DNA of 64,000 nt from Limisphaerales bacterium (GTDB lineage: Bacteria > Verrucomicrobiota > Verrucomicrobiia > Limisphaerales > SXTU01): the NCBI GenBank assembly GCA_009773355.1, contig WRPG01000002.1, positions 1 to 64,000 of the forward strand. Direction: 5' to 3'. Shown here in pieces: positions 1 through 53,742 of this stretch (the first letter of the stretch is position 1; each line of letters begins with the position of its first letter). Both the position numbers and the translations under genes were made by a program. Below the pieces are notes generated by a model. It worked only from the letters and a program-made list of their open reading frames with translations, was not told the origin of the DNA and did no database searches.

Positions 1-1
1 C

Positions 2-8200: not shown

Positions 8201-11200
8201 GTGTTTGTCACCAACTACCCGATGATCCCCGGCTGGCGGCTCAACGCGAACCCGCAGACTTACGCGTATCTGCCCACCAGCACCGTCATCCGCACGGACC
8301 CGTCCTACGTGATCGGACGGCCCGTCCCGCCCACGCCGGCGGTGCAGATCCAGGATTCGACCGCGCCCACGCTGCCCACGATCAGCGTGTTTGCCTCGGG
8401 CAATGTGGCGCTGGAGAGCGGTTTCGATCCGGGTGAGTTTGCGTTCACCACCTCGTCCGTGCTGACCAACGACCTGACCGTGTTTTACACCATGTCGGGC
8501 ACGGCCTCGAACGGGCAGGACTACGTCCTCATGCCCGGTTCGTTTGTGATGCCCGCCAACACACGGTTGTTCTTCCTGTCGCTGGTGGCGACCAACGACT
8601 ACTTCGTCGAGGGTCAGGAGGCCGCCACGCTCACCATTTCCCCCAACGCGAACTATGTCGTGGGCACCGCCGCTGCCAACATGACCATTGTGGACGACGA
8701 TCTGCCCAGCGTCAGCGTCAGTTCGTTGGATTCCACCGCCGCTGAAACGGGCGGCAATCCGGCCAGCTTCACCTTCACCCGCACCGGAAACCTGGACCGG
8801 GCGCTGACGGTGGATTATGTGGTGTCGGGCGGGGCCGTCAGCGGCACTGACTTCAACACGCTGCCGGGTTCCATCACCATCCCGCTGGGCCAGACCCGCG
8901 CCACCGTCACGCTCACGGCCATTGATGATGGGATCGCCGAGGGCGACGAGACGGTCATCGTGACGATCGTGGACTCGGTGTTCTACAACACCGGCAGCCC
9001 GAACTCGGCCCGGGCGATCATCCAGGATGACGAGCAGAACACCATCACCGTGGCCACCACCGGCAATGCCACGGAGGGCGGCAGCGGCTCCTTCACGCTG
9101 ACGCGCACGGGCAGCACCAACAATCCGGTGACGGTCTTTTACACGGCCGGCGGGTCGGCTTTTGGCGGCGTGGGCGCGGACTACAACTCCATCGGCACCG
9201 CCGCCGTGATTCCGGCCGGGTCCGCCACAGTGGTCATCCCGGTCACCACGATTGACGACAATTTCTTCGAGGCCGCGGAAACCGTCATCCTCACCGTGGC
9301 GACGAACAGCACATACAACGTCGGGTCCGCGTTCCAGGCCAGCATGACCATCACGGACAACGACAGCACCAGCAATCCCAGCGTCGGGTTCATGCTCGGC
9401 TCCAGTGGCAATCCCGAGTATTCCAACACGGTCACGCTGGCGGTTTATCTGAGCGCGGTGCCGCCCATGGGCGATCTGACCACCAACGGCACGCCCTCGC
9501 GCATCAAGGTGGAATACGGCGTGTCGGGCGGCGACGCGGTCAACGGCACGGACTTCACCCTGGCCAGCGGCACGCTCATCTGGCGCAACGGCACCAACTT
9601 CGGCGGCCAGGATCCGGCGATCACGGACGATTTGATCCAGAACATCACCTTCACGGTGAACAATGACCTGCTGCTCAACGGCGAACGCTCCTTCGTGGTC
9701 ACCCTTTCGAATCGCGTCGAAGCCATCACTTACGACGGTTTCCAGCACAACTTCCTCGCCCGGATGACCACGAACAACAATCCGTTCCGTGAGGACACCA
9801 ACTTCGCCATTGGCTTTGGCCCCAACGCCCGCGTCAACGCGCTCCATGTCCAGCCGGACAACTTCGTCGTGGCCGCAGGTGACTTCACGGCGCTCAGTCC
9901 CACCACCAACACTTCCGTGTCCGCGCTGCGCGTGGCTCGGTTTCAGTCCAACGGCATTGTGGACGCCACCTTCGCCTTCCCCGGCACCGGCTCCAACGTC
10001 CTCGCCATTGCCGCCCAGTCGGATGGGCGGCTTATTTTCGGCGGCACGGACACCAACTCGGCGGCGGGATTCAACACCAACCGCCTGATGCGGCTGCTGT
10101 CCGATGGCCAGATTGACGGCACGTTCAACACCGGCACCGGCCCGAACCGAACCAATGTGTATGCGGTGGCGGTCGAGTCCGTGACCGACAAAATCTACAT
10201 CGGCGGCGACTTCCTGACCTACAATGGTGTAAATCACCGTAAGTTTGCGCGGTTGAACAGCGATGGCTCGCTGGACGGCTCGTTTGGCGGCACCGGTTTC
10301 TTCCCCGGGGACGAGGTCTACGCCATCCTGCCCATCGGCCTCACCAACGTGCTGGTGGGTGGCTTGTTCACCAACTACAACGGCACCTTCGCGACCAATC
10401 TGATCATGCTCAACACCAACGGCACGGTCAAATGGACGGCGGATGTCAACGGGGCGGTGCGTGGTCTGGCGCTGGAACCCATCAACAACACGATCATCGT
10501 CGTCGGTGACTTCTCGACGGTGAACACCAGCAACGCCACCCGGATCGTGAGCCTTCAGCTTTCGGACGGCCAGATTGACCTGGTGCGCAACGTCAATCAG
10601 AAGGAGTTGACCGCCAACGTCGCCACGTTGCGGACAACCATTTCGCATGAACTGAGGGTTGGCGACCCCGTAATCATCGCCATCTCGGATGCTGTCTTCG
10701 ATGGCAACTTCACCGTGACTGGAATCGCTGAGTTCACGCCGGGCAGTGGGGTGACCAACCTGTTCACTTACACCCGTGTGCAACCCGATGTGGCGACGAC
10801 GGGAGCCACGGGCACAGTTACCCGGAGGAACACGTTCCGCTCCGCGACCGAGACCGGCGTCAATGAAGACGCGGGCGCCAATGGCACCGTGCGCGCGATC
10901 ATGCGCGACGGGTCGGGCCGTTATTTTGTCGGCGGTGACTTTTCCGCGTGGGGCACGAACACGGCGGAGTTCTTCGCCCGGATCAACAACAACGGCACGT
11001 TCCAGCGCACGTTAAGCCCCACCAACAATCCGAACGCCCCGGTCCGCGCCCTCGCCCAGAGCAGCACCGGGCAGGTCTATCTCGGCGGCGATTTCCAGGC
11101 CAACGTCTTCTTCTACCCGAACAACTACAGCTTCGACATCCACCGGTCGCACACCTACACCATCAAGGACGATGACGCGGCCACCGTGACGGTCACGGCT

Positions 11201-14200
11201 CCCGCGTCGCCGGACGGCTCGTTCCAAGTCACGCGCGCGGGCAGCACGGCGGCCGCGATCGCGGTTAATTTCAACGTCACCGGCACGGCCACCCGCGGCT
11301 CCGACTACCTGCTGCGGACCAACGGCATTGTGCTGGGCCAGAACACCGTCACGATTCCCGCCGGCACCAACTCCGTCCTGGTCGCCGTGGAGGCGATTGA
11401 CGACGGCGCGGAGGAGTTCGAGGAGACGGTGCGGCTCACCATCACGAGCGTGCCCAGCGGGAAGGTTGGCGCACCGCAGTCCGCGACCATTTACCTCGCG
11501 GACAACGATGGCTCCATCCAGTTCGACCTGGCGAGCTTCGCGGCCCTGGAAGGGGCCGGGGTCGTGCCCATCACCATCCGGCGCAGCGGCAACACGAGCG
11601 GCACGAACAGCGTGGACTACGTGATCAGCAACGGCAGCGCGGTCAACGGCGTGGACTTCTTCGGCACCAACGGGACGGTCACCTTCTTCCCCGGCCAGCT
11701 CACCACGAACTTCACGATCACGCTCACCAACGACACGCTGGTCGAGGGCAATGAAACCGTTCTTCTGGCGCTGGCCAACGCGCAGGGCGGCCTGCCCCTG
11801 GGCGGGCAGAGCACGGCGACGTTGAACGTCATTGACGACGACACGGCCTTCCAATTCTCGGTGACCAACTTCCTGGTGGCGGAGAACGGCGGCAACGGGA
11901 ACGTGACCATCTACCGGCTCGGGTTGAGCAATGCCGCCCACAACGTGGAGTTCCGGGCGGATTCGGGCAGCGCCACCAGCGGCGCGGATTTCACGGGCGT
12001 GACGAACGTCCTGACCTTCAACCCCGGCGTCACGAACATGACCGTGCCCGTGACCATCCTGGACGACTCCCTCATCGAGACCAACGAGACGGTGACGCTC
12101 ACCCTGCTCAATCCCACCGGCGGCAGCGCGCTGGGGATCAGCAACACCGTCGCCCAGTTGACCATCCTGGAGGATGAAAGCCAGTTGGTCTTCTCCGCGA
12201 CCAATTACCCGGTGAACGAATACGCCGGGACGGTGGTGATCACCGTCAACCGCCTGGGCGGAACGGTCAACCCCGTGACGGTCAACTTCAACACCGCCAA
12301 CGGCACGGCGGCCCATGGTTCGGATTACTTCACCAACTTCACCGCCATCAGCCTGGCCGGCGACGTGATCGTCCCCTCCACCAACGATTCGGGCGTCACG
12401 ATCCAGACGCCGGGCCGGATCACCACCAACATCACAGTCAACCTGATTGACGACGTGGCGGGCGAGGTGGACGAGACGGTTCTGCTCGCCCTGACCGCAC
12501 CGGCCGGCGGGCCGGTCGGTGCCACCACGCTCGGCACGCCGTCGGCGGCCACCATCACGATTCTCGACAACGAGCAGGCGGGGGATCCGGTCTTTGAATA
12601 CGGGCTTGCCAGCGCGACCAACGGAGCCAACGGCCGGGTGCTCGCGCTGGGCCGGCAGAGCAGCGGGCTGGTAATTGTGGGCGGCGAATTCACTGCCTTT
12701 GACGGCAATTTCTATAACCGGCTGGCCCGCCTCCTGCCCGGCGGCTCGGTGGACACGGGCTTCATCATCGGCACCGGTGCGAGCAGCAACATCAATGCGT
12801 TGAGCGTGCTGTCCAACGACAAGATTCTCATCGGCGGTGCCTTCACCAACTTCAACGGAACGGCCCGCGGGCGCATCGCCCGCCTCAACGCCAACGGCTC
12901 GCTGGACGGCTCCTTCGACCCCGGCACCGGCGCGGATGACCTGGTGCGCACGCTGGCGGTCCTGACCAACGGCCAGGTGCTCATCGGCGGCGACTTCACC
13001 AATTACAACGGGACCAACGTCAACCGGCTGGCCCGCCTCAACGACAACGGCACCTTTGACACCAACTTCACGGCGGACGTGTCCGGCCCCGTGCATAGCC
13101 TGGTGGTGGATGCCGCCGGGCGCGTCGTCATCGGCGGCGCCTTCACGACCGTCAACGGCAGCGCGGTCACCAACGTGGCCCGCCTCCTCACCAACGGCGT
13201 GCTCGACCCGGCCTTCACGGTGACCGGCGTGGACAACACGGTGGCGGCGGTGGTGCTGCAAGGCGACGGCAAGGTGCTCATCGGCGGCGCCTTCACGAAC
13301 GTGAACACGTCGGCGCGCAACTCGCTGGCCCGGCTGCTCACCAACGGCGTGCTGGACGCCGCCTTCGCCCCGGGCACCGGCCCGAACGGGCTGGTGCACA
13401 GCATCGCCACGGACGCGAACGGCAAGATTCTCATCGGCGGCGACTTCACGAATTACAACGGCACGATCCGGAGCAACTTCGCCCGCATCAAGGGCAACGG
13501 CCAGCCGGACCCGTTCTTCCGGCCGGGGCGCGGGGCCAACGCCGGGGTGCGCGCGGTGCTTGCCCTCGCGGACACCGCGATGATCCTCGGCGGCGATTTC
13601 ACCGCCATTGACGGCATCACCCGCAACCGGGTGGCCAAGGTGCACGGCGACGAGGTCTCCAACATCGCCACGATGGAGCTTGCGGCCGCGACCTTCCAGG
13701 TGGACGAGAACATCGGCAACGCCAGCATTCCGCTGGTGCGCTACGGCGCGACCAACATCGTCAGCTCGGTGACGGTGTTCACCGCCGATGGCTCGGCCAC
13801 GCACCCGCTGCATTACACGGGGATCACCAACGTCGTGACCTTCGCGCTGGGCGAGCGGAACCAGACCGTGAACGTGCCCATTGTCAACGGGACGGATCCC
13901 AACGCGCCGCGCACCCTGAGCCTCGCCCTGACCAACGCCAGCAACGGCTTCCTCGACACGATCACCAACGCGGTGCTCACGGTGAACGACAACGACGTGG
14001 TGTTCGCGTTTGCGACGAACGTGATCTCCGTGCTGGAGAGCGCCGGCACCGTGACGGTGGGCATCCTGCGCTTCGGCTCGCTTCAGCACGCCGTGGGCGC
14101 GGAGTTTTCCACGGCGGACGGCACGGCCCAGTCGGTGTTTCCGGCGGACTTCACGGCCCAGGCGAACGTGCCGGTCCTCTTTAGTGCCGGCGTGACCTCG

Positions 14201-45000: not shown

Positions 45001-48000
45001 TCGGTGAACGTCACGGCCGGCTCCGCCGATACCACCTACACGGCCTCCGGCGCGGACAGCGCCATTTATGCCCTGGCCCTCCAAACCGATGGCAATCTGC
45101 TGGTGGGCGGTGACTTCACGGCGGTCAACGGCGTGTCGCGGAACCGGTTGGCGCGGCTGGATGCCAGCGGGGCGCTCGACCCGGTGTTCAACCCCGGCGG
45201 GGCAAACGGCTCCATCCGCTCCCTGCTGGTTTATGATCGTGGGGTCAACGCGGGGCGCATTCTGGTGGCCGGCTTCTTCACCCAGGTGAGCGGCACGAAC
45301 CGCGCCCGTATTGCGCGCCTCAACCAGGGCGGCTCGGTGGACCTCACTTTCGATCCCGGCGCGGGCGCGGACAACGCGATCTTCGCGGTGGCCCTGCAGT
45401 CTGATGACAAGGTGGTCATCGGCGGCGCCTTCAGCACGTTCAACGGCTTTGGGCGCAATTTCGTCGCCCGCCTCAACGCCAACGGGACGCTCGACAACAC
45501 GTTTGACCCCGGCACCGGCGCGAACGGCCCGGTGTTTGCCGTCGCCGTGCAGCCGGACGGCAAAATTCTCATCGGCGGTGACTTCACCACGGTGAATGGC
45601 GTGGCCCTGACCAATGTCGCGCGGCTGAACGCCAACGGTTCGGTGGACACCAGCTTCATCGTGGGCGGCGGCGCCAGCAGCACCGTCCGCTCCATCCTCG
45701 TGCAGACGGACGGAAAGATTCTCATGGCCGGCTCGTTCACCAACTACGCCGGGACGGCGGTGGGCCGCGTGGCGCGGCTGCACGCCACGGGCCTGCTCGA
45801 CCCCAGTTTCAACCCCGGCGGGCTGGGCGCGGACAACGCGGTGTTTTACATGACGATTCAAGGGGATGGGAAGATGCTGCTCGGCGGTGATTTCACCCGC
45901 TTCAACGGCGTGAGCCGCAACCGCTTCACCCGGCTGAATCCCGACGGCACGACCGACCCGACCATCAACATCGGAACCGGCGCGAACAACTTCGTGGCGG
46001 CCATTGCCGTGCAGACCGACGACCGGATTCTGCTCGCGGGCGGTTTCACCACCTTCAACAACGTGCCGCGTAGTTATCTCGTGCGCCTGCACGGTGGCGT
46101 CATCGCCGGCTCGGGCAGCCTGGAGTTCACCGCCGCCAATTATTTCGTGGCGGAAAACGCTGCGGCGGCGACCATCACCGTCCGGCGCGTCGGCGGCACC
46201 ACGGGGGCGGCCTCGGTCTTCTTCACGACCAGTGACGGCACGGCCACGACCAATGGCGTGCACTACACGAACGTCACCGCCACCTTGAATTTCCCGCAGG
46301 GCGAGACCTTCGTGGCCACGAACGTCTCCATCGTGGATGACACGGCCGTCAACACCGACCGGTTCGTGAATCTGTCGCTCTCCAGCTTCACCGGCGCGGC
46401 CTCGGGCGGCCAGAGCAACGCGCTGCTGACCATTGTGAACGACGACGGCCGGCTTGGTTTCAGCGCCGCGACCTACAACGTCAGCGAAGTGGTGGGCAGC
46501 GGCAGCGCGACCATCACCGTCACCCGCACAGGGGGGACCACCGGTTCAGCCACCGTGCAGTTCACCTCGACCACCAATGGCACGGCTACGCCCAACGTGG
46601 ACTACGTGCCGGCCAGCGGCACCCTGGTCTTTGGCGCGGGCGAGACAAACAAGACCTTCAGCCTGCCCATCATTGATGACCTGCTGCTCGAGGGCAACGA
46701 GACCATCGAACTCGTGCTCACCAACCTGACGGGCAATGCCGTGCCGGGCCAGATGACGGCGGTGCTCACCATCGTGGACAACGACGTCGCCCCCGGCGTC
46801 TTCAACTTCACGCTCGGCAACTACGTGACCAACGAGAGTGACACCATCGTGCTGGCGCAGGTCACGGTCACGCGCACCAACGGCAGCACGGGCGTGGTCT
46901 CGGTGGACTATCGCACGGGGGACGGAACCGCCCGGGCCGGGCAGGACTACTCCGCCACCATCGGGACGCTTTCCTTTGCGGATGGGGAGACGGTCAAGAC
47001 CTTCGTTGTGCCGATCCTGCCGGACTCGGTGCAGGAAACGAATGAAACCGTGTTCCTGGATCTGCTCAACCCGACCGGTGGCGCCACGATCGGATTCCAG
47101 AACTCGTCGGTGCTGACAATTCTCAACAACGACATCCTGATCTACGGCAACCTGGTCTTCAGCAGCGCGACCTACACCAACCGGGAGAACGACGGTGCGG
47201 CGGTCATCACGATCCGCCGGATTGGCGGCACCTCCGGCGCCATCGGGGTGAGCTACGCCACCACGACGAATGGCACGGCCGTCGCCGGATCGCATTATTC
47301 CCCGGTCAGCGGGACCCTGGCCTGGGCCAACGGGGATGCGACTGACCGGCTGATCACGGTGCCGTTGTTCAACAACTCGATCGTGGACGGTGACCGCACG
47401 GTTGGGTTGGCGCTCTCCAACCCGGCGAATGGCGCGAGCCTGAACCTTCCCAGCACCGCGACGCTGACCATCCGCGATGACGACTCCGCTCCCGGCGTGC
47501 TGGGCTTTTCCACGGTCATTTACAACGCGTTGGAGAGCGCCACCAACGCGCTGCTGACCGTCACCCGGACGAACGGCTTCACCGGGCCGGTCTCGGTGCA
47601 GTTCGCCACCTTCACGAACGCGCTTGATTCCGCAGTGGCGTATCCGGGCACCGGTCCGGTGGTGGCCGGCCAGCATTACACCAACACCACCGGCACGCTC
47701 TCGTTCCCGGACGGGGTCACCAATCTGACGCTCACGGTGCCGTTGCTGGACAACGCCCTGCAGGATGGCAACCGCACCTTTAGCGTCCGACTCTTTGGCG
47801 AGACCGGCGGCGCGCTGCTGGGCCTGAGCAACACGGTCGTCCGCATCGTGGACAACGAGAACAACGCCGGCTCCGTGGATGCGGGCTACATCACCGGCTC
47901 CGGGGCCAACGGCACGGTCACCGCCATCCTGCTCGCCACCAACGGCCAGGCCGTCATCGCCGGCGACTTTTCCTCCTTCAACGGCACTCCGCGCCAGAAC

Positions 48001-51000
48001 GTGGCCCGCATCAACGTGGACGGCACGCTCGACAACGGCTTCGACCTTGGATCGGTCACGTTGCTGCTGACGAACACGGCCAATGTCCTCACCCGCGAGC
48101 TGACCAATGCCACGGTGGCATCCATCACCACCGCCACCCCGCACGGCCTCTCGCCGGGCACCAATGTGACCGTCGCCGGCCTCACCCGCGCGCTGTTCAC
48201 GAGCGGCTCAGGCTTCACGGTCGCCAGCGTGGTTTCGCCGACCAACTTCACCTATCTCATCCCGCCGGTGAGCGTGACGGCCGCCGACGTGAGTCGCGCC
48301 GCCGGCACCGCCGTGGTGACCACCACCGTCGCGCACCAGTTGAACGTCGGCGACACGGTGACCATCACCGGCATGACGGACGCCTCGTTCGACGGAACCT
48401 TCCAGGTGGCATCGGTGCCCGGGGTCACCACCTTCACGTTCACGCAGGTCGGGCCGAACGTGCCCGTCACGGCGGACAGCGGCGTCGTTCGTTTGCAGGT
48501 GGTTCCGCTGGTGACTGAGCCGGGCGTTGCGTCGCACTTCTACAATGCCGCGAGCGTCCGCGCGCTCGGGGTCTACACCAACGGCGTGAACGCCAACAAG
48601 ATCGTCATCGGCGGCCTCTTCTCCGCCGTGGGCGGCAATCCGCGCACCAACATCACCCGGCTGAATGTGGACGGCTCGCCGGATGCCACCTTCAATCCCG
48701 CCGCCGCCGCCAACAACGCGGTGAATGGCGTGGCCATCCAGAACAACGGTCGCGTCGTGATCGGCGGCACATTCACGGCGGTCAACGGCGTTGCCCGCAA
48801 TTTCATCGCCCGGCTCAACTTTGATGGCACCCTGGACACGACCTTCGATGCCGGCTCCGGCCCCGACGCGCAGGTGCGGGTGGTCGCGGCGCTGACCGAC
48901 GGGCGCATCTTGATCGCGGGTGATTTCAGCACGGTGGCGGGGGTCGCCAGCCGCCGCATCGCCCGGTTGAACGTGGATGGCACGGTGGACCCCACCTTCG
49001 CCCCCGGCGGAACCATCACCAACGGGACCATTTACACCCTGGTGGTGCAGGTGAACGGGCAGATACTGGTGGGCGGCGCGTTCACCGCCTCCAACGGCGT
49101 GGTGCGGACCAATTTGATGCGGCTCAACGCGGACGGTTCACTGGATGCCACCTTCAATCCCGGCACCGGGCCGGATGATTTTGTGACGTCGCTTGCGCTC
49201 CAGCCGGACGGCAAGATCATCGTGGGTGGCGCCTTCGTGAACTTCGCCGGCTATGGTCGGAACCGGATTGTCCGGATTGATGGCAATGGCACGGTGGATC
49301 CGACGATCAATTTTGGGACGGGGGCGGATAACTTGGTCACGGCGACGGCCGTGCAGCCCGATGGAAAAATCCTCATCGGCGGGGCATTCACGAGCTTCAA
49401 CGGCATCGCGCAAAACCGCTTCACCCGCCTGCATGGCGGCCAGAACGCGGGGGCCGGGCTCGTGGTGTTCGGCGCGCAGCAGTTCACCGTGAGCGAGGCG
49501 GGCACCAACGCCACGATCACCGTGCTGCGCACGGGCGGCACCAGCAACACGGTGTCCGTGGATTACTCGGTCATTGCGGGGGGCACGGCGGTGGCCGGCT
49601 CGGATTACCTGCCCGTGGGCGGCACCCTGTTCTTCAGTCAGGGGGAGACGCTGCGAACCTTCCTGGTGCCGGTGATTGACGACACGCTGGTCCGGCCCGA
49701 TCGCACGGTGTTCCTCACGCTTTCCAACGCCACGGGCGGAGCCTCCCTGGACATTCCGCCGACGGCCGTGCTGCGGATCGCTGAGAACGACTCGTTCCTC
49801 GCCTTTGCCTCCACGACCTACAGCATTGCGGAGAGCGGCACCAATGCGGTCATCACGGTGGCTCGCACGGGCGGCACCAATGAGGCTGTCAGCGTGGAAT
49901 TCTTCACGGCTGGGATCACCGCCGTCGCCGGGGTGGACCACACGAATGTCGCGGGTCAACTGCTGTTCCCGGCCGGGGTGCTCACCCAGGCCTTCAATGT
50001 GCCGGTGGCGGATGATGTCGTCGTCGAAGGCAGCGAGACGGTGGCCTTGTTCCTGACCAATGCCGGCCCCATTGGCATCGCTTCCCTGGGTGCCGTGTCC
50101 AACGCCACGCTGACCATTGTGGACAATGATTTTGGCGTGGGCGTGCTGGGCTTCTCGGCCACGAATTTCAACGCCTTCGAGAATGTGGGGAGCGCCGTGG
50201 TCACGGTGACGCGCACCAATGGCAGTTCCGGGGCGGTGACGGTGAGTTTCGTCACCGTGGACGGGGTGGGCAATGCGACTGCGGGCGTGGACTACCGCAG
50301 CACCAACGGCATCCTGACGCTGGCCGATGGCGAGACGACCAAGACCTTCCAGGTCCCCTTGCTCGACGACACCATCGTTGAGGGCGCGGAGACCATTGCG
50401 CTCGTGCTGTTCAACGCCTCCGGCGGGGCGGGCCTCGGGCTGGCCAACGCGACGTTGACGGTCGTGGATGACGACGCGTTCGGCACCTTCCAGTTCGGCA
50501 CCAACAGCTTCACGGTGGACGAGGCCGCCGGCACCGTCACGGTCCCGGTCAACCGGGTCGGGGGCATCATTGGCGCGGTGTCCGTTGACATCACCAGTGT
50601 GAACGGCACTGCCATCGCCGGCGTTGACTTTGGCCAGGTTTCCCGGGTGCTGAACTTCGCGCCCGGCCAGACGACCAGCAACGTGGTGGTGCAGATCGTC
50701 AACGACCAGGTGGTTGAGCCGCAGGAGTCTTTCAGCCTGGTGCTAGGTCAGCCCACTGGTGGCGCGCAGTTGGGCGCGCTCACCAACGCCACGATGGCCA
50801 TCGTGGACGACGACATGCAGTTCAGCTTCGCGCTGGCCGCCTTCAGCGTGCTGGAAAACGCCTCCAACGCCGTGCTGACGGTCACGCGCTACGGGGTGAC
50901 CAACCTGACGGGCACGGTGACCGCCGTGACCAGCGACGGCACCGCCGTCAATGGCGTTGACTACGTGGGCGTCACCAACACCCTCACCTTCCAGCCGGGC

Positions 51001-53742
51001 GTCACCAGCACCAATTTCAGCGTCACCGTCACGGACAATCAGGTGATTCAGGTCAGCCGTTTCCTGAACCTGACGCTCACCAACGCCACCCCGACGAACC
51101 TGGCCAGCGTGGGCACGAACGGCACGGCCACGTTGACGATCGTGGACAATGACAATGACTTCAGCTTCTCCGCGGCGAACTACACCGTGAGCGAGTCGGC
51201 GGGCCTGTTGAATGTCACGGTGCTGCGGTTCGGCCAGAACACCGGCCAGGTGTCGGTGGCCTGCTCCACGGTGCCGCTGGCGAGTCCGGTGGCCGCGACC
51301 GCCACGGCAGATTACACGGCTTCCGCCGCGACGCTCGTGTTCGCCCCCGGTCAGGCGAGCCTGACCTTCACGGTGCCCATCGTGGCGGATCAGGTGCCCG
51401 AGGGAGATGAGCTTTTCGGCCTGATCTTGACGAACCCGCTGCCCGCCGGCGCGACCCAGCTCGGCGCCACCAACACGGCGAACGTCACCATCGTGGACGA
51501 CGACATCGGCATCGGGTTCAGCACGGCCGCCTACACCGTCGCGGAAAGCGCCGGGTCCGCCACCATCACCATCCTCCGCGCCGGCGTGACCAACGTCTCG
51601 GTGACCGCCGCCTTCACCACCACCAACGGCAGCGGGCTGGCCGGCCTGGATTACACCGCCACCAACGCCGTGTTCACCTTCGCGGCCGGCGTGACCAGCC
51701 GCACCTTCACGGTGCCCATCATCAATGACAGCGTCTCCGAGTCCCCGGAAACGGTGGGCCTCCTGCTCTCGAACCCGACGGGCGGCGCGTTCCTCACCGT
51801 CAGCAACGCCGTGCTGACGATTGTGGACAACGTCGGGGTGGTTGGCTTCACCGTCGCCAACTTCCTGGTGGGTGAGAGCAGCACCAACGGCGTGGTCGTC
51901 GTCGCGCGGACCAGCGGCAGCTCCGGCGCGATCACGGTGCAGTATCTCACCTCCACCGGCGGCACGGCCACCAGCGGGCTGGATTACGCGGATGCCAGCG
52001 GCACGCTCAGTTGGGCCGACGGGGAGAGCGGCTCCAAGACCTTCCTGGTGCCGGTCTTCAATGACCAGTTGGTCGAGGCCACCGAAACCATCCAGTTGCG
52101 GCTGACCAACACCACCGGCGGGGCGGGCTTCGGCATCAGCAACGCCACGCTCAGCATCGTGGACAACGATGGCGCGGGTGGGGTGGACTTTGCCTTCGAT
52201 CCGGGCGTCGGATTCGACAACTCGGTCTACGCGGTCGCCCAGCAGACCAACGGCCAGCTCCTGGCGGCGGGCCGCTTCACCGCCTTCCACGGCACGAGCC
52301 GCAACCGGGTGGCGCGCCTGAACATTGATGGCACGCTGGAAACCACCTACAACGCCGGCTTGGGACCGGACAACGCGGTCAACGTCATCGCCCTGCAAAC
52401 CGATGGGCGGCTGGTGATCGCCGGTGACTTCACCTCCGTGGGCGGCACACTGCGCAGCCGGGTGGCCCGGCTGCTGGCGGATGGTTCGCTCGACACCGGC
52501 TTCTCCGTGGGCAGCGGGGCGAACAGCTCCATCAACGCGATGGCGTTGCAGCCGGACGGACGGGTGCTGATCGGCGGCGCCTTCACGAACTTCAACGGCA
52601 CCGCCCGCGCCCGCATCGCGCGCCTGAACACCAGCGGGTCGCTCGACACCACCTTCAACCCCGGCACGGGCGCGAACGGGTTCGTCAACGCCCTGGCGGT
52701 CTATGCCAGCGGCACCAACGCCGGCAAGATTCTCGTGGGCGGCTCGTTCACCAGCTTCAACGGCTCGGCGGTTGGGCGGCTCGTGCGCCTCAACGCGGAC
52801 GGCACCACTGACACCACCTTCAACCCGGGCACCGGCGCGAACAGCACCGTGGCCTCCATCGCCATCCAGTCGGACGGCAGGCTGGTCATCGGCGGCCTGT
52901 TCGGCGCCATCAACGGCACCTCGCGCTCGCGCGTGGCCCGCCTGAATCACGATGGCTCGCTGGACTCCACCTTCTTCCCGGTGATGAACGACACGGTGCT
53001 CAGCGTGGTCGTGCAGCCGGATGGGCGCGTGCTCGTGGGCGGGGCTTTCACGGTCATCAACGGGGACATCGGCACGCCGCCTTCCCCGGGCACGGGGGTC
53101 TCGCTGCGCGAGCGCACGGCCAATGTCGCCACCCTCACCACCACGGCGTCCCACAGCCTCGCGGTCGGCTCGCGGGTCACGCTCGCGGGCGTCGGCACCG
53201 GCTACGATGGCACCTTCACCGTGACGGCGGTGCCCTCCACCACCCGCTTCAGCTACACCTCCGTCGGGGCGAATGAGGTCGCCACGGCGGTCACGCCCAA
53301 CGGTTCCTTCAGCGCGGCGGGCACGGCGGCGGGCCGCATCGCGCGGTTCCAGGCGGACGGCACGGTTGACAGCACCTTCGCCACCGGCACCGGCGCGGAC
53401 AACCTGGTCTACACCGTGCTGCTCCAGTCCGATCTCAAGGTGGTGCTGGCGGGCGACTTCACCACCGTCAACAGCGCGACGCGCGGGCGCATCGCCCGGT
53501 TGAATGGCAACTCGAACACGCCCATCGGCACGACGCTCGGCAGCTCTGGCTACAGTGCCGGCCAGTTCACCGTGGGCCTGAGCGCCGAGCCGGGCCGTTC
53601 GTATCGCATCGAATACTCCACTGACCTGCGCACCTGGACGTCGCTCACCACGGTCAGCAGCGGCCACGGTGTTCTGACCTTCACGGACACCACCTCGCCC
53701 GGCAGCGCGCGCCGCTTCTACCGCGCCATCCAGTTGCCGTAG
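27100..53742 (+). CDS. Giant 2: secreted Calx-beta/beta-propeller protein with 63 blades
   Basis: The ATG at 27100 is chosen because it gives a classical signal peptide (MSVVPLSRRWLLGLLC... cleaved after VQA at 27189); upstream in-frame starts at 26986 (TTG) and 27058 do not. Length is 8880 codons. Order: two pre-peptidase-C-terminal-like domains, two irregular Calx-beta-like domains, then eight propeller blocks of 7, 7, 7, 14, 7, 7, 7 and 7 blades, each preceded by a Calx-beta run (2, 2, 5, 5, 6, 4, 5, 8), and a tail ending RRFYRAIQLP. Unlike giant 1 there is no zinc-protease motif. Two blades carry a 110-residue hairpin insertion and two others carry FCCH-like modules. Calx-beta domains are calcium-binding in known families, so an extended exported fibre or adhesin is the best guess. 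The two giants are paralogous in their modular parts. Confidence 0.93.
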   Translation: MSVVPLSRRWLLGLLCAVMWLGAGTPRVQAQVDGDTFSLPLFMSGNLGRAATDSEFTNGSAFFFPQALNNFGYGKETGEPNHAGNAGGSSIWFAWTPTLSGTATLTVTPTTFLTTNLTAIYTGTVVSNLTLVASNNVAGVFTNAVSFPVTAGTTYRIAVDGFNSGFFASQFQFSLAWSVLTNDSFATPTVLLGSAGVVTNSNVGATKEVGEPNHSGDTGGASVWFSWTAPVSGPAAFGILNFFSVNNALAIYTGNSVGSLVLVANNSLPPVLGTPQFTNAIFFNAVQGTTYRIAVDSVLNTSASSFALFLSSQTSTNAGHFEFSADSIFVTEAESDPGVTRTVTQWNGVDTRDLAGAVVTVRRTGGFRGRMAVDYVMVDNTARAGIEYGSLTNSATVPVRGRVVFDDWQMSTNFVVPIIPASFTIAGSSSINLVAVLQHTNDTFFSIFITNVVADSTPVNGVTEATNLQPTFSISPLSVGIRNLDNTFSATNGNIFLLRSLTRVSERVGDAQVVVGRLGGDQTAAATVKYGLSATLAELPTSAPVGAATGTAAGRNNYFALTAGSDYAMPSSAAVTAPPALVARPADFTADSQSFQLTIAGGNSTASIIVPILDDNEVELNEDILITLLRVGATGQESPTPFFPTASPGYTLGSSFQSILSIVADDIYAGEQPAGAADNTHNQHNFRLTSPPNNPTPGANNVVFALAVQLDQRTVLAGDFTAVNTSSRNRVARLLNDGQIDTSFNPGSGADNFINALALQPDGRILIGGGFSSFTGVSRNGIARLNADGSLDATFNPGIGVNPGDVAGSAVQALALQTDGRVVVAGNFTTFNSVPFNRVVRLTAAGAADPAFNALGSGPNDRVYAVAVYPSTSVQHPNKILIAGAFTTVGGQIRNSLARLNADGSVDLTFNGLGTGANDAVYAIALTASEQILIGGAFTQVDIYARGGVARLNANGAVDTTFDPGTGTDSSVYAITQQPDGAIVIGGGFTAFNGTRRMGVARLLAHGVLDTSFLDTTYNHFAGITQPLSTSPNSACFAIALESGGNVMIGGSFNRVGGGYGRETNFTAHSTIANIGAFNLRDYISPRLNVARLVGGATPGPGNIEFTQATYSADEFSGSYFVQLIRTNGSLGQASVNFVTVDGTAVGATNATTTGFDFSHTNATPFWVSTRGINGVGDTRRTLDAVTGVNNDPLDHRGRAWLGFADVYVPVVQDTIVEGNQALGVRITLPANTDFNAPLANLGGAPIPVGLALGRSTATVSIVDDDFAYGEFTYSAFSYTVSENVGSAVVTVLRTNGAVGTVTVRYSTTAGTASTNEFTPVSGTLTFASGQTNRTFTVPVVDDTMPNSPTNRTVILTLTNATGGATISAGGRSATLVILDNEPPAGTPAGSVNTAFGTTNGPNDKVLAVTFITNALPAQGINGRWLVGGDFTAIDGLPRSRVAMLNLDGSVNTTIFNRLGTGPNNSVFAIAMHTNQVPTTLTGRIVIAGAFTQVDGTNRARIARLNADGSLDTSFNPGAGADNPIYAVLVQPDDKIVIAGDFTTVNGATRNRIARLNADGTVDTTFNPGQGASATIRTLALDSLGRVYIGGDFTFYDSLTQNRVARLNSNGTLDTTFLDPNNADAGANARVRGLALEPGGSVVIVGDFTSVGGTTNLNRIARLLSNGAVDGSFLTSGADSSVLAVTVDIATNIVVVGDFTTINGLNRTRIARITPGGRLDPAINFGTGPNNFVAAVALQPVTNGVITIGGGFTVVDGLPRNYVAQLVGGQNTGSGTLQFLAGNLDVVENATSTVVFVRRVGGLSNAVSMDFTTLDGTATNGLHYVTNRGTLLFQEGEAVRAYTLSIFDDAVTNVNRVFTNLLLNPTNYTATTTNFDASLGGAITNATVTLQDNDTVLGFAFATFNANENAVGGNAVVTVVRTGTGVGSTFVNYATSNGTATAGVDYTAVNGQLIFTNGQTSVTFVVPLLDDVLVEGTETVLLNLFTPAPAGVATLGRSTAVLNIVDDDFSPGVIAFAASAYSVQENLTNAVIAVIRTNGFTGLVTAQYTTTDGTARGYSGIGSPASFDYTNSTGTVTFGDGETSKTFTIGIINNSVADANASRTVNLSLPSATGGAVIGAQSTAVLTIQDEDPPAFGSFSFSLAAYSIVETNAAVSILVNRVGGTSNNVTVDFSANGGTATPGFNYQPANLTLAFGDSQASTNVVIQILHDTGASGDRTVNLALANPTSGARLGAISNAVLTIVDNEFSPGVLSFATNFFSVLENATNAVVTVIRTNGFTGTVTVGFAVSNLTAVAGTDFVATNGTLTFANGISTQTFLVPITGNLFQDGSRLFEVRLAAPGGGATVGLTNATVAIFDDESAAGSVDGSFVVGTGVDGQVYSVAQHTNGLLFIGGDFTTYNSVSRSNIVRVNTGAALDAAFVPDAIRLAGLAGSVRAVAVYPSDVNAGKVVVGGSFDTVGSATRGNLARLNLDGTVDLSFNTSPGTDNSVFALHIQTDGKVLIGGLFTTVNGVNRNFIARLNMDGTVDATFNPGSGADAPVRGIATDQLGRILIVGSFNSVDGVVRTNLARLNSDGTVDKTFDPGVGANAGVTCVAVAAGNRPVVGGLFTSINGVARNRIARLNPDGTVDTTFNPGAGADEFVSAVSLQPDGKVLLGGGFGSVGGLPRNRITRLNSDGSMDVSFNVGTGADGVVSTILTQLDGNIVIGGGFTSINGTPRNRVARLVGGGNLGFGSFDFSSPTFSVAEDGTNALITVVRSGGTSNSVGVAFNTSNGSGTAGSDYTATSGTLVFAPGVTHLTFNVPVSDNLLVDGNRTVNLTLSNPTNGATLGIGSRAVLTVLDNDSVLGFSPLTYSLNENGGSTTITVIRAGGTNGTVSVDYRTADGTAVAPADYTAASGRLTFTNGQTTATFTVAVVDNLIVQGNKTVALLLTNALGSALIGSGAGTLTIVDNEFGPGTLGFIAPTFTVSETNATAAITVARTNGTVGSVSVDYATTTGGTAVAGTNYTSVSGRFTWPDGDTSSRIFTVPILDDFVVNANRTVALVLSNVVGGAALGLSGATLTITDNDSVIGFSATNYSLAESGGFTLITVQRTGAAVDTVSVNYTISPSNATAGVDYLATNGSLTFGPGTNSLTFSVTAVDDVLVEGNEFALLALDTPVSTPAGSATLSVTNALLTIVDDEAAVSFSGTNYVVQENIGRAAITVVRVGVTNATLQVDFASSNATAVAGLDYTGTNGTLVFTPGLTNLTFDVPITDNLFINPSKVVQLSLFNIVGPAGTMLVSPSNAVVTIMDNDTNSPSAGSVDVTFGANLGANGPVYAVAFHTNGQVLLGGNFTTVNGGLVNRVARLNADGTLDQNFNPGQGADTNVFAVAVQPNGAVLIGGQFTSVNGTNRARVARLAADGSVDLAFSPGTGADNDVYALTVQANGAVLVGGAFTNFNGTAAGRLLRLSADGSVDASFTIGTGANGAVRSIAVMGDGRIVIAGDFTSFNGTLVPRIARLTAAGTLDPTFNPGAGADNTIYSVAVQTNGAVVVGGVFTTFGGLTKNGITRLNVDGTLDVNFNSGLGANGAVFSVGLRSSGRVMLAGAFTTLNGVSRNRFARLNADGSLDATFDPGTGANNTVESVGVFVPPVPVPVAIPFTNQFIYAGGQTNFVDIGATSGVVNITFDSFSTFSADNLRIYYEGVRLLDTNVVGTNTFTVPYGPGTSTVVTITVNEGASTFFNFVWGYSGTVLPVVSTVERVVVGGDFTAINGVARDRVAQLNENGSMDTTFGLGTGSSIVLGVGLNTNLSLPSLLGKSVVVGNFTVLNGANVSRLARLNLDGALDLGFNIGTGAGDTINAVLVQPDGRVIVGGFFTNFNGLSRGRLARLNVNGAVDAGFDTSIGANNVVLALALQPDGRVLVGGLFTTLNGTARNFIARLNADGTVDSSFNTSVGADGAVRAIVLQPDGRVLVGGDFTTFNGVARARLARLNADGTLDNTFNPGTGAGAFVSALAVDAAGRVIVGGGFTVFNGVSRNRIVRLTAAGAVDVTFDPGTGFDDYVNATTVQTDGKLVLVGGFTTFNGLPANRIIRLNPDGSVDTTINFGTGANNFVSALAIQPWDEKLLIGGAFTSVDGQTRNGVARLNAGANGSGSGSFEFTQLNYLADEDATNSTVTVVRRNGLTGTATVQLVTSDGTAVRGVDYIGQTNTLTFANGQNTTNVVIQLIDNLVANANKTVVVTVLNPSPGAGLGAVNPATITIVDNDSLLEFSASTFSVNESSSNATITVVRNGGGAGAVGVSYSTSAGSALAGADFTSVSNQLSWAAGDVAPKSFDVPILADSLVEGNETVVLTLTNAVGAASLGRSTAVLTIVDDDFSPGALGFVTNLFVVNENVGSAVVTVVRTNGSTGPVSVQISTANGSAIAGVDYLATNGFLNFSDGQTNKTFGITVLNDSAPEGDESVLLTLSNPGNGAVLGLASAALLIRDDEISNGILGFNSPIYSVSEGAGSVAVTVIRTNGSQGTVTVNFTTSDGTAKQGSDYTTTSGTLAFPDGLTNVTFNIPILDDPIFETNETVNLTLSVPSGGAALGLATAILTIVDEDGRSPGVFNFSSSLYYVKDTETFNNHDLPNNTSVDTLGGFFWFSPTASNHHNALGALVTVTRSGGANGIASVDFATSDFGTNFFGTNFFFFSNAVAGFDYLPTNGTLVFYEHEMAKSFIVPVVHHFLGSTFFTNSFLSFNLTLTNPTGGATLGTLASATVDIEQPGYVNTTRATGPRWSRHNYRVREDIGRAQLVLYDAPPPTTIRFAAPAANGFFHMAGSDYATFGGSIGTNGFRGDFDATDQTVSGAIVIVNVPIYDDLEAEFNEDFVIQAIVGSLIVDEAVVTILDNDDPPGAFDREFNPDYDDRTSPPQNTAPGANNTVFAIAVQPDGKSVIGGDFTAMNTIQRNRIARMNLDGSLDTTFNPGVGANDFVAAIGVYPTVTNVVVSFDTNGIPIATNQVAATNNGKIVLGGGFNSYNGVARSYIARVDGNGVLDPTFNPGIGADKPVRALHVYPSGAFNGRVLIAGDFTSVNGTNRNRVARLNADGSLDTSFNPGTGANGPVYAVRVQLDGRVVVGGDFTTFNGVPRNRIARLTATGALDLTFNPSAGADGTVYALGIEQAGSGSVQVNRSASGGPAEDIFDVNTGGATAGFITLNYEFYFVPDTIRVYYGANQLPVNRIFDSGLTNGANSVTIPFGPGTNTTLRIVVNEGSGILGTIWDYDAVLTTTATGVEKVILGGEFNNFDLRRRSKIARLNPDGSLDTTFSPGRGFDDTVFAIQMQANGQAILGGLFTDFNSTRRFGLARLLLNGTLDTTFMDSGFSHFAGLINLTNSLPRNFVAAIALQAATNTSTFFNDNGTNRIQITNITEEVMIGGSFQMGGGGRRDLSNIVEPGFYGTTNAGNRRIMAGFDRTDKFARFGEFPRADLRKRSNIARVRGGAVRGPGNIEFTQPNYTIDENAGTLFITLTRTNGSITGEPPVGSASVNFGTSDPPFGPGAAVAGQDYVTARRVPTWPSVPQITATNRPSDGTTGPNNLLRATTDVFVSIAEDSGIEGDETIDLQLSIPQGQLFMSGEPVASGVALGLSRSTLTVVDNDFNPGVLTFPQDTFRVDENVGAAVVTIIRTNGSAGPISCDYTTAISGSTAGVGVDYTATVGTIAFASGQLTNIFTVPIVDDTGVELDETITVQLLNPRGGATLGLTNAAILVIDNDFAAGRLNFSQATYSVAENGGSATIAVQRSGGSQGALTVQVAVTNGTAVSPTDYVAATNTLVWASAETSVKTFTVSLVDNANVDGNRTVNLTLATPSVAGALGTITNAVLTIVDDDAFGSLAFSRPIYTVNENGSNAIVTVVRLGGVAGTVSVRYDTATGGSAVAGSNYVVAGGTLTMVPGQTSTNFIVSVNDNAIPDGTRSINLALTSPSNASLGFPSTATLNIIDDESVNVTAGSADTTYTASGADSAIYALALQTDGNLLVGGDFTAVNGVSRNRLARLDASGALDPVFNPGGANGSIRSLLVYDRGVNAGRILVAGFFTQVSGTNRARIARLNQGGSVDLTFDPGAGADNAIFAVALQSDDKVVIGGAFSTFNGFGRNFVARLNANGTLDNTFDPGTGANGPVFAVAVQPDGKILIGGDFTTVNGVALTNVARLNANGSVDTSFIVGGGASSTVRSILVQTDGKILMAGSFTNYAGTAVGRVARLHATGLLDPSFNPGGLGADNAVFYMTIQGDGKMLLGGDFTRFNGVSRNRFTRLNPDGTTDPTINIGTGANNFVAAIAVQTDDRILLAGGFTTFNNVPRSYLVRLHGGVIAGSGSLEFTAANYFVAENAAAATITVRRVGGTTGAASVFFTTSDGTATTNGVHYTNVTATLNFPQGETFVATNVSIVDDTAVNTDRFVNLSLSSFTGAASGGQSNALLTIVNDDGRLGFSAATYNVSEVVGSGSATITVTRTGGTTGSATVQFTSTTNGTATPNVDYVPASGTLVFGAGETNKTFSLPIIDDLLLEGNETIELVLTNLTGNAVPGQMTAVLTIVDNDVAPGVFNFTLGNYVTNESDTIVLAQVTVTRTNGSTGVVSVDYRTGDGTARAGQDYSATIGTLSFADGETVKTFVVPILPDSVQETNETVFLDLLNPTGGATIGFQNSSVLTILNNDILIYGNLVFSSATYTNRENDGAAVITIRRIGGTSGAIGVSYATTTNGTAVAGSHYSPVSGTLAWANGDATDRLITVPLFNNSIVDGDRTVGLALSNPANGASLNLPSTATLTIRDDDSAPGVLGFSTVIYNALESATNALLTVTRTNGFTGPVSVQFATFTNALDSAVAYPGTGPVVAGQHYTNTTGTLSFPDGVTNLTLTVPLLDNALQDGNRTFSVRLFGETGGALLGLSNTVVRIVDNENNAGSVDAGYITGSGANGTVTAILLATNGQAVIAGDFSSFNGTPRQNVARINVDGTLDNGFDLGSVTLLLTNTANVLTRELTNATVASITTATPHGLSPGTNVTVAGLTRALFTSGSGFTVASVVSPTNFTYLIPPVSVTAADVSRAAGTAVVTTTVAHQLNVGDTVTITGMTDASFDGTFQVASVPGVTTFTFTQVGPNVPVTADSGVVRLQVVPLVTEPGVASHFYNAASVRALGVYTNGVNANKIVIGGLFSAVGGNPRTNITRLNVDGSPDATFNPAAAANNAVNGVAIQNNGRVVIGGTFTAVNGVARNFIARLNFDGTLDTTFDAGSGPDAQVRVVAALTDGRILIAGDFSTVAGVASRRIARLNVDGTVDPTFAPGGTITNGTIYTLVVQVNGQILVGGAFTASNGVVRTNLMRLNADGSLDATFNPGTGPDDFVTSLALQPDGKIIVGGAFVNFAGYGRNRIVRIDGNGTVDPTINFGTGADNLVTATAVQPDGKILIGGAFTSFNGIAQNRFTRLHGGQNAGAGLVVFGAQQFTVSEAGTNATITVLRTGGTSNTVSVDYSVIAGGTAVAGSDYLPVGGTLFFSQGETLRTFLVPVIDDTLVRPDRTVFLTLSNATGGASLDIPPTAVLRIAENDSFLAFASTTYSIAESGTNAVITVARTGGTNEAVSVEFFTAGITAVAGVDHTNVAGQLLFPAGVLTQAFNVPVADDVVVEGSETVALFLTNAGPIGIASLGAVSNATLTIVDNDFGVGVLGFSATNFNAFENVGSAVVTVTRTNGSSGAVTVSFVTVDGVGNATAGVDYRSTNGILTLADGETTKTFQVPLLDDTIVEGAETIALVLFNASGGAGLGLANATLTVVDDDAFGTFQFGTNSFTVDEAAGTVTVPVNRVGGIIGAVSVDITSVNGTAIAGVDFGQVSRVLNFAPGQTTSNVVVQIVNDQVVEPQESFSLVLGQPTGGAQLGALTNATMAIVDDDMQFSFALAAFSVLENASNAVLTVTRYGVTNLTGTVTAVTSDGTAVNGVDYVGVTNTLTFQPGVTSTNFSVTVTDNQVIQVSRFLNLTLTNATPTNLASVGTNGTATLTIVDNDNDFSFSAANYTVSESAGLLNVTVLRFGQNTGQVSVACSTVPLASPVAATATADYTASAATLVFAPGQASLTFTVPIVADQVPEGDELFGLILTNPLPAGATQLGATNTANVTIVDDDIGIGFSTAAYTVAESAGSATITILRAGVTNVSVTAAFTTTNGSGLAGLDYTATNAVFTFAAGVTSRTFTVPIINDSVSESPETVGLLLSNPTGGAFLTVSNAVLTIVDNVGVVGFTVANFLVGESSTNGVVVVARTSGSSGAITVQYLTSTGGTATSGLDYADASGTLSWADGESGSKTFLVPVFNDQLVEATETIQLRLTNTTGGAGFGISNATLSIVDNDGAGGVDFAFDPGVGFDNSVYAVAQQTNGQLLAAGRFTAFHGTSRNRVARLNIDGTLETTYNAGLGPDNAVNVIALQTDGRLVIAGDFTSVGGTLRSRVARLLADGSLDTGFSVGSGANSSINAMALQPDGRVLIGGAFTNFNGTARARIARLNTSGSLDTTFNPGTGANGFVNALAVYASGTNAGKILVGGSFTSFNGSAVGRLVRLNADGTTDTTFNPGTGANSTVASIAIQSDGRLVIGGLFGAINGTSRSRVARLNHDGSLDSTFFPVMNDTVLSVVVQPDGRVLVGGAFTVINGDIGTPPSPGTGVSLRERTANVATLTTTASHSLAVGSRVTLAGVGTGYDGTFTVTAVPSTTRFSYTSVGANEVATAVTPNGSFSAAGTAAGRIARFQADGTVDSTFATGTGADNLVYTVLLQSDLKVVLAGDFTTVNSATRGRIARLNGNSNTPIGTTLGSSGYSAGQFTVGLSAEPGRSYRIEYSTDLRTWTSLTTVSSGHGVLTFTDTTSPGSARRFYRAIQLP
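27205..28040 (+). repeat. Two tandem pre-peptidase-C-terminal-like domains (giant 2)
   Basis: Two homologous domains of about 140 residues. Each contains GEPNH, then S-[IV]-W-F-[AS]-W-T, a [LA]-[TA]-I-Y-T-G motif and T-Y-R-I-A-V-D. This is the pattern of PPC-like carbohydrate- or protein-binding beta sandwiches of secreted proteins. Confidence 0.8.
28045..29124 (+). repeat. Two irregular Calx-beta-like domains (giant 2)
   Basis: Starts FEFSADSIFVTEAESDPG and, after a long loop, RSLTRVSERVGDAQVVVGR. Both carry large insertions, and base composition and codon choice are less GC-rich than in the regular runs. Confidence 0.6.
29125..30407 (+). repeat. Propeller block A of giant 2 (seven blades, subtype I)
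   Basis: Cores TVLAGDF, ILIGGGF, VVVAGNF, ILIAGAF, ILIGGAF, IVIGGGF, VMIGGSF. Lead-in TPGANNVVFALAVQ and an elongated last blade ending TPGPGN, as in propeller set 3 of giant 1. Confidence 0.83.
30408..31254 (+). repeat. Calx-beta run (two domains, giant 2)
   Basis: Starts ATYSADEFSGS (long insertion with Trp, about 30580-30710) and FSYTVSENVGS. Confidence 0.75.
31255..32410 (+). repeat. Propeller block B of giant 2 (seven blades)
   Basis: Opens with AGSVNTAFG. Cores WLVGGDF, IVIAGAF, IVIAGDF, VYIGGDF, VVIVGDF, IVVVGDF, ITIGGGF. Confidence 0.84.
32411..34185 (+). repeat. Calx-beta run (five domains, giant 2)
   Basis: Starts GNLDVVENATS, ATFNANENAVGG, SAYSVQENLTN, AAYSIVETNAA and NFFSVLENATN. 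Confidence 0.77.
34186..35290 (+). repeat. Propeller block C of giant 2 (seven blades)
   Basis: Opens with AGSVDGSFVVGTG. Cores LFIGGDF, VVVGGSF, VLIGGLF, ILIVGSF, PVVGGLF, VLLGGGF, IVIGGGF. Confidence 0.85.
35291..37000 (+). repeat. Calx-beta run (five domains, giant 2)
   Basis: Starts PTFSVAEDGTN, LTYSLNENGGS, PTFTVSETNAT, TNYSLAESGGF and TNYVVQENIGR. Confidence 0.77.
37001..39510 (+). repeat. Propeller block D of giant 2 (fourteen blades, two propellers in tandem)
   Basis: Opens with AGSVDVTFG. Fourteen cores: VLLGGNF, VLIGGQF, VLVGGAF, IVIAGDF, VVVGGVF, VMLAGAF, VVVGGDF (after the hairpin insert at 37990-38325), then SVVVGNF, VIVGGFF, VLVGGLF, VLVGGDF, VIVGGGF, LVLVGGF, LLIGGAF. No Calx-beta domain separates the two halves. 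Confidence 0.83.
37990..38325 (+). other. Beta-sandwich-like insert in a blade hairpin (block D, blade 7)
   Basis: About 110 residues between the first and second strands of the blade (VESVGVF .. VERVVVGGDF). It contains LRIYYEGVRLLDT, TFTVPYGPGTST and ITVNEGAS, matched by the insert at 42545-42875. Confidence 0.7.
39511..41739 (+). repeat. Calx-beta run (six domains, last two irregular, giant 2)
   Basis: Starts LNYLADEDATN, STFSVNESSSN, NLFVVNENVGS, PIYSVSEGAGS, then a divergent domain at about 40870 (SLYYVKDTETF) and another at about 41390 (HNYRVREDIGR). The last two have long Phe/His/Asn-rich insertions. Confidence 0.7.
41740..43507 (+). repeat. Propeller block E of giant 2 (seven blades, subtype I, expanded loops)
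   Basis: Cores SVIGGDF, IVLGGGF, VLIAGDF, VVVGGDF, VILGGEF (after the insert at 42545-42875), AILGGLF, VMIGGSF. Lead-in DREFNPDYDD .. APGANNTVFAIAVQ and a long last blade ending RGPGN. Confidence 0.82.
42545..42875 (+). other. Beta-sandwich-like insert in a blade hairpin (block E, blade 5)
   Basis: About 110 residues between VYALGIE and VEKVILGGEF. It contains DTIRVYYGANQLPV, SVTIPFGPGTNTT and RIVVNEGSG, homologous to the insert at 37990-38325 and in the same position of the blade. Confidence 0.7.
43508..45004 (+). repeat. Calx-beta run (four domains, giant 2)
   Basis: Starts PNYTIDENAGT (with a long Trp-containing insertion), DTFRVDENVGA, ATYSVAENGGS and PIYTVNENGSN. Confidence 0.76.
45005..46111 (+). 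repeat. Propeller block F of giant 2 (seven blades)
   Basis: Opens with AGSADTTYT. Cores LLVGGDF, ILVAGFF, VVIGGAF, ILIGGDF, ILMAGSF, MLLGGDF, ILLAGGF. Confidence 0.85.
46112..47865 (+). repeat. Calx-beta run (five domains, giant 2)
   Basis: Starts ANYFVAENAAA, ATYNVSEVVGS, GNYVTNESDTI, ATYTNRENDGA and VIYNALESATN. Confidence 0.77.
47866..49454 (+). repeat. Propeller block G of giant 2 (seven blades, FCCH-like insert)
   Basis: Opens with AGSVDAGYITGSG. Cores AVIAGDF, IVIGGLF, VVIGGTF, ILIAGDF, ILVGGAF, IIVGGAF, ILIGGAF. Two FCCH-like modules lie between blades 1 and 2. Confidence 0.84.
48075..48495 (+). other. Two tandem FCCH-like modules inserted in propeller block G
   Basis: First copy: ITTATPHGLSPGTNVTVAG. 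Second copy: VTTTVAHQLNVGDTVTITG followed by SFDGTFQVASVPGVTTFTF. The insertion lies after the L-x-N-G-F segment of blade 1, the same loop as in propeller set 1 of giant 1. Confidence 0.65.
49455..52169 (+). repeat. Calx-beta run (eight domains, giant 2)
   Basis: Starts QQFTVSEAGTN, TTYSIAESGTN, TNFNAFENVGS, NSFTVDEAAGT, AAFSVLENASN, ANYTVSESAGL, AAYTVAESAGS and ANFLVGESSTN. This is the longest run of giant 2. Confidence 0.78.
52170..53519 (+). repeat. Propeller block H of giant 2 (seven blades, FCCH-like insert)
   Basis: Cores LLAAGRF, LVIAGDF, VLIGGAF, ILVGGSF, LVIGGLF, VLVGGAF, VVLAGDF. An FCCH-like module interrupts blade 6. This is the only propeller followed directly by the tail domain. 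Confidence 0.84.
53098..53310 (+). other. FCCH-like module inside a blade of propeller block H
   Basis: TANVATLTTTASHSLAVGSR, then YDGTFTVTAVPSTTRFSYT. It lies between GGAFTVINGD and GRIARFQADG, that is inside a blade rather than between blades as in the other two sites. Confidence 0.65.
53520..53739 (+). other. C-terminal RRFYRAI tail domain of giant 2
   Basis: About 73 residues with GRSYRIEYSTDLRTWTSL, a TFTDTTS turn and the end ARRFYRAIQLP. It matches the tail of giant 1 in position and pattern. Confidence 0.6.

Follow-up and report, generated by a model that had tools for sequence, protein, structure and literature searches.

Seven-blade sets in two giant DUF5122/delta-60 proteins of a Limisphaerales bacterium and among their relatives

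Two adjoining plus-strand giant open reading frames (ORFs) dominate the 64,000-nucleotide stretch of Limisphaerales DNA analysed here (hereafter the window), and the DUF5122/delta-60 blades that they encode come without exception in multiples of seven (Table 1). Using a blade hidden Markov model (HMM) trained on 42 regular units of 51 residues and run with filters off, we found sets of 7, 7, 7, 7 and 7 blades in giant 1 (35, or 5 x 7) and of 7, 7, 7, 14, 7, 7, 7 and 7 in giant 2 (63), giving 98, or 14 x 7, for the pair and no set with six, eight or a partial number. This trained profile arrives at the same 98 blades that a first-pass annotation of the sequence had counted, along with its claim that six-, eight- and partial-blade sets are absent. 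The reading we propose, and consider very probable as a whole, is that the giants are secreted surface or matrix proteins built from Calx-beta rods and closed seven-bladed DUF5122/delta-60 discs, that they grew mainly by in-register copying, and that the number seven is probably kept by closure. What is new is a rule of seven that extends across the family, for which we found no statement in the literature searched; the giants themselves are very large new members of a known DUF5122/delta-60 kind.

Table 1. Positions of the giant ORFs, their discs and their other domains in the window.
Feature	Position	Strand	Description
Giant 1	5237..26791	+	7184-aa ORF; signal/TM-like N-terminus, C-terminal RRFYRAIE tail
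M6-family-like metalloprotease domain, giant 1	6224..7156	+	HEFGHNLGLLH; TIGR03296 E 9.9e-15; PF05547 E 0.003
Disc g1A	9782..11161	+	7 blades, divergent, one inserted domain (HMM)
'RELTxxxVATxTTxxxHxL' domain in g1A	10592..10864	+	one copy (sequence)
Disc g1B	12584..13645	+	7 blades (HMM); TIGR02608 E 8.5e-32
Disc g1C	15947..17197	+	7 blades, irregular last blade, type 2 (HMM, disc tree)
Disc g1D	18656..19774	+	7 blades, type 1a (HMM, disc tree)
Disc g1E	21524..22612	+	7 blades, type 1b (HMM, disc tree)
Calx-beta domains after last disc of giant 1	22637..25330	+	eight domains (profile)
Proprotein convertase P-domain, giant 1	25787..26167	+	PF01483 E 1.8e-08
DUF11 domain, giant 1	26201..26539	+	PF01345
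Giant 2	26986..53742	+	8918 aa from listed TTG; Calx-beta arrays and nine seven-bladed discs
Disc g2A	29149..30381	+	7 blades, type 2 (HMM, disc tree)
Disc g2B	31267..32403	+	7 blades, 1a-like (HMM, disc tree)
Disc g2C	34186..35289	+	7 blades, type 1b (HMM, disc tree)
Disc g2D1	37003..38403	+	first 7 of 14-blade block D; beta domain inserted in blade 7
Beta domain in g2D1 blade 7	37984..38313	+	without confident Pfam match
Disc g2D2	38404..39495	+	second 7 of 14-blade block D
Disc g2E	41761..43506	+	7 blades, the seventh strongly degenerate; assigned to type 2 from its position and last blade
Similar beta domain in g2E blade 5	42532..42855	+	sequence, Pfam search
Disc g2F	45013..46095	+	7 blades; disc used for structure prediction
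Disc g2G	47866..49437	+	7 blades; blades 1 and 2 separated by a large insert
'RELTxxxVATxTTxxxHxL' domains in g2G	48058..48540	+	two copies (sequence)
Disc g2H	52174..53511	+	7 blades; blade 6 split by inserted domain
'RELTxxxVATxTTxxxHxL' domain in g2H	53065..53313	+	one copy, splits blade 6 (sequence)

Giant 1 comprises an M6-like metalloprotease domain that carries the HExxHxxGxxH motif (TIGR03296, 55.2 bits versus a curated cut-off of 110.8), a PKD domain, discs A to E with their Calx-beta arrays, the eight-domain Calx-beta array, the P-domain and DUF11. In giant 2, Calx-beta arrays alternate with discs A, B, C, D1-D2, E, F, G and H; its true start is likely a later ATG ahead of a signal-like stretch, and both giants end in similar tails (RRFYRAI). 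The arrays between discs hold two to eight Calx-beta domains by profile, and a count of run lengths between discs gave one to eight. PF03160 matches above its cut-off in both giants with the acidic positions conserved, as in Calx-beta/NCX-type domains, although the exchanger has a pair of these domains and the giants have long tandem arrays. Both DUF5122 (PF17164, up to 1054 bits per half-protein) and delta-60 (TIGR02608, 353 and 519 bits) exceed their curated cut-offs. WD40 (PF00400) reaches 29.8 bits in total against a cut-off of 27, with no single stretch passing. Directly upstream of giant 1, positions 3811-4956 show weak matches to prenyltransferase/squalene-cyclase toroids, and a 1266-aa ORF at 14-3811 had no Pfam or NCBIfam match.

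The giants share with DUF5122/delta-60 repeats the GG.F blade core and the DGxxDxxF outer strand, but differ from them in having a spacing of 51 rather than 57 residues (TIGR02608 has 55 positions) and in carrying their 98 blades in two adjoining genes, alternating with Calx-beta arrays. The 51-residue unit length of the first-pass annotation was right, but it is not special: delta-60 repeats spaced 57 residues apart on another contig of the same genome (C151) also come as seven blades, DUF5122 matches the repeats at either spacing, and versions with 49-, 51- and 57-residue units all count to seven. At the start of each disc stands one additional outer-strand segment, GSVDxxF or a degenerate version of it, and the last blade of each disc stops after RxxxARL, as expected for velcro closure.

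Not all blades are equally easy to detect. At E<=0.001, PF17164 gave 89 matches on the contig, two of which are halves of the one split blade in g2H. This library profile thus undercounts; alone it detects about 88 of the 98 blades, and those that it misses are degenerate and lie at the expected positions. We counted the split blade (g2H blade 6) once. The weakest blade by HMM is g2E blade 7, which at -1.4 bits is below significance by profile alone and was accepted because its degenerate 'VMIGGSF' form recurs as the last blade of the related g1C and g2A and of orthologues. Other weak-scoring blades are the last of g1C, the last of g2A and several in the divergent g1A.

Blade loops carry inserted domains of two kinds: the first occurs in g2D1 and g2E, the second in g1A, g2G (twice) and g2H. 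The latter, of approximately 70-80 residues (RxLTxxVATxTTxxxHxLxxGxxVxIxG...FDGTFTVT), had no confident Pfam or NCBIfam match. In the g2G orthologue on G012_C135 (contig C135 of genome G012, from another family) the insert is missing, with a first spacing of 56 versus 213, and the number of blades is unchanged. Blocks scored as having eight blades in the manner of g2H were rejected, as they represent one blade split by an insert.

AlphaFold2 predicted disc g2F, using an input alignment of five other discs of the window, to be a closed seven-bladed propeller with high confidence (pLDDT 93.8, pTM 0.92). VIA-align matched the whole model (residues 1..361) to WD40 discs with seven blades (Z about 30; about 280 residues at an rmsd of 2.2 Å) and, equally, to the designed seven-bladed v13WRAP-T (Z about 30, 2.2 Å). 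Fold and closure resemble those of RACK1 and PRL1 (Z about 30, 2.2 Å), although sequence identity to the disc is 10-16% and there is no proven relationship; a PDB sequence search returned no convincing relative, its best matches being designed proteins at E 0.005. The earlier suggestion that each set closes as one seven-bladed propeller is thus supported by prediction for the one single disc modelled, g2F, the remaining single discs being called seven-bladed by blade count. By prediction, then, DUF5122 repeats would adopt a beta-propeller fold, which gives the family a concrete predicted form, the closed seven-bladed disc. Our literature search on DUF5122, PF17164, TIGR02608 and delta-60 found one modelling paper, with a contact-based model, in the accessible part of which we found no blade number.

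In block D, 14 blades run on without a Calx-beta spacer. Its model is of moderate confidence (pLDDT 75, pTM 0.60), being weak over the first 20 residues and lowest in the insert. The top structural match by VIA-align was 2YMU (Z 31.6, 562 residues, 9.1 Å), the WRAP protein of Nostoc punctiforme (Npun_R6612), whose 14 blades form two seven-bladed propellers in the crystal structure (PMC6805158). The two proteins share the arrangement of 14 contiguous blades in two discs, but WRAP consists of nearly identical WD40 blades of approximately 40 residues, whereas the blades of block D are about 49% identical, of DUF5122 type and interrupted by an insert in blade 7. An rmsd of 9.1 Å is what one would expect if the two discs sit at a different angle. 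The uninterrupted run of blades and the moderate model confidence leave some room for a single large ring or an open array, but we regard either as very improbable: residues 11..475 alone match designed seven-bladed discs at 2.2 Å (alignments over 11..467 and 14..475), the two-disc 2YMU is the top match, and D1 and D2 fall in different clades of the disc tree. We thus hold, with moderate confidence, that block D would fold as two seven-bladed discs, in line with its original description as two fused propellers. Many seven-bladed discs also match block D over the range 1..831 with only about 280 residues aligned, which may reflect a second disc closed by the N-terminal strand; this nested closure is tentative given the weak prediction of the first 20 residues.

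With a pooled profile we scored relatives of three origins: members of the same order, matches from a scan across species genomes of bacteria and archaea, and proteins encoded in genomes from other phyla. Among 235 closed blocks of these relatives, 164 had seven blades, 22 fourteen, two twenty-one and one twenty-eight, so that 189 of 235 were exact multiples of seven as first scored, in a sample that favours high-scoring arrays and represents several phyla by just one or two genomes; the uncorrected figure for clusters at 50% identity was 82 of 120. A distant protein with weak matches (L185; seven hits and a gap) was left out. Of the exceptions inspected, nearly all proved to be missed, split or interrupted blades; the few blocks that stayed outside this explanation were the second block of G012_C135, L115, L146, L089 and L165. 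Blocks scored as '3+4' and '5+2' in L084 and L150 were rejected, since each is one set interrupted by a stop codon; both are seven-blade sets with an in-frame stop, as if decaying or badly sequenced.

Could the count be an artefact of profile thresholds, or of picking blocks that look complete? Pfam alone scores several seven-blade proteins as six, and we accepted some blades on visual inspection or analogy. Three results nevertheless make this explanation highly unlikely. An extra weak blade was present in the flank of 9 of 12 six-blade blocks compared with 5 of 149 clean seven-blade blocks and 14 of 447 shuffled flanks of seven-blade blocks, and we rejected the six-blade blocks, on this test and on inspection, as having missed degenerate last blades. 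Seven Bacteroidota proteins with six blades each by Pfam have seven each by a locally trained profile. Finally, two adjoining Bdellovibrionales proteins (L119) with related 49-residue repeats, scored at 19 and 18-19, reach 21 each when weak blades, terminal ones in particular, are counted. Blade numbers other than seven are thus rare across the DUF5122/delta-60 family, and the same holds for 49-, 51- and 57-residue units.

In the disc tree, orthologous and paralogous discs cluster into types across genomes and families, and orthologous discs keep the same blade-spacing patterns. Within disc clades, zero shift was the best blade register in 33 of 36, 17 of 21 and 14 of 21 pairs versus 1 in 7 by chance, a comparison that favours zero shift somewhat as the clades were drawn from a tree built in register; between type 2 and type 1 discs, 23 of 126 pairs were in register, which is about chance. 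The succession of an irregular disc, a type 1a disc and a type 1b disc occurs in giant 1 as C-D-E and in giant 2 as both A-B-C and E-F-G, the assignment of g2B and g2E relying in part on their position and spacing instead of the tree. Its recurrence points to growth by cassettes. In a congener, the relative of giant 1 is an open frame of 14,944 aa whose 91 DUF5122 blades make up 13 discs (G005:C14, L034-L037); the first five of these discs group with g1A-E, leaving eight whole discs more than in giant 1. It is followed by two more large frames of this type. Taken together, these sequence comparisons show that whole discs, and cassettes of several discs, were copied, and that most of the growth of the giants came about in this way.

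Giant 2 is closer to its counterpart on G012:C135 (84% in block D; 83-90% for discs) than to those of congeners (73-74%), as compared using L031-L033 and also L090. In the G012 genome, the neighbouring LytB is at 72% and LptF/LptG, which lie on another contig, at 54-62%. This closeness may reflect horizontal transfer of the giant genes; alternatively, the contig may be mis-binned.

As discs were copied whole, in register and in larger cassettes, the 14 discs of the window are not 14 independent trials. The first-pass annotation had taken their strict counting to suggest selection against partial propellers; from the window alone this does not follow, for the count is largely inherited through disc copying, and it is from outside the window that the claim gains support. 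The opposing argument is that one ancestral seven-bladed disc was copied whole with no continuing selection, as the tree and register tests in the giants and close relatives, and the spacing patterns kept between orthologous discs, would allow. We consider inheritance as the sole cause unlikely, though less so than the other alternatives weighed above. Where the blades of a block share at least 60% identity, and the block thus appears freshly amplified, 11 of 12 blocks have exactly seven blades, and in the twelfth a gap leaves room for two blades that escaped detection; these blocks lie in unrelated proteins of different phyla. Irregular and regular discs have no shared register, and Calx-beta runs, which serve as an internal control, vary from one to eight in the same genes. 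The contrast between fresh arrays that stop at seven and Calx-beta numbers that vary favours a folding constraint on closed rings, and we infer that selection is the reason for seven.

Each seven-blade set would fold into one closed propeller in which the outer strand ahead of blade 1 completes the last blade, and the 14-blade block would be two such discs back to back. Copying of whole discs and of disc-plus-Calx-beta cassettes in register would keep the count at seven, and a ring that fails to close would misfold and be removed, which is most likely why other blade numbers are rare. Inserts would be tolerated where they fall in inter-strand loops, since the ring then stays intact. The signal-like N-termini, the acidic positions of the Calx-beta domains and, in giant 1, the metalloprotease-like and P-domains point to a secreted surface or matrix role: the giants may lie at the surface or in the matrix, their rods may be stiffened by calcium through putative Calx-beta binding, and their discs may bind partners in a ligand-binding or adhesive capacity.

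It is still an open question how a propeller arrives at its number of blades. A survey of recently amplified propellers described a continuum of blade numbers, with peaks at 7 and 14 in the WD40 lineage, and noted that nothing counts the blades (PMC9218822). In DUF5122/delta-60 arrays, by contrast, intermediates are almost absent, albeit in a small sample of fresh arrays, and the family looks much stricter across phyla and three unit lengths. That the rule is near-absolute even in fresh arrays, either because selection removes intermediates very fast or because amplification proceeds in whole sevens, is a possibility we consider less likely than not; if true, these arrays would be a natural test of how propellers reach their blade number. 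The giants further illustrate a way in which giant genes of bacteria can grow, namely through the addition of whole discs and of disc-plus-rod cassettes.
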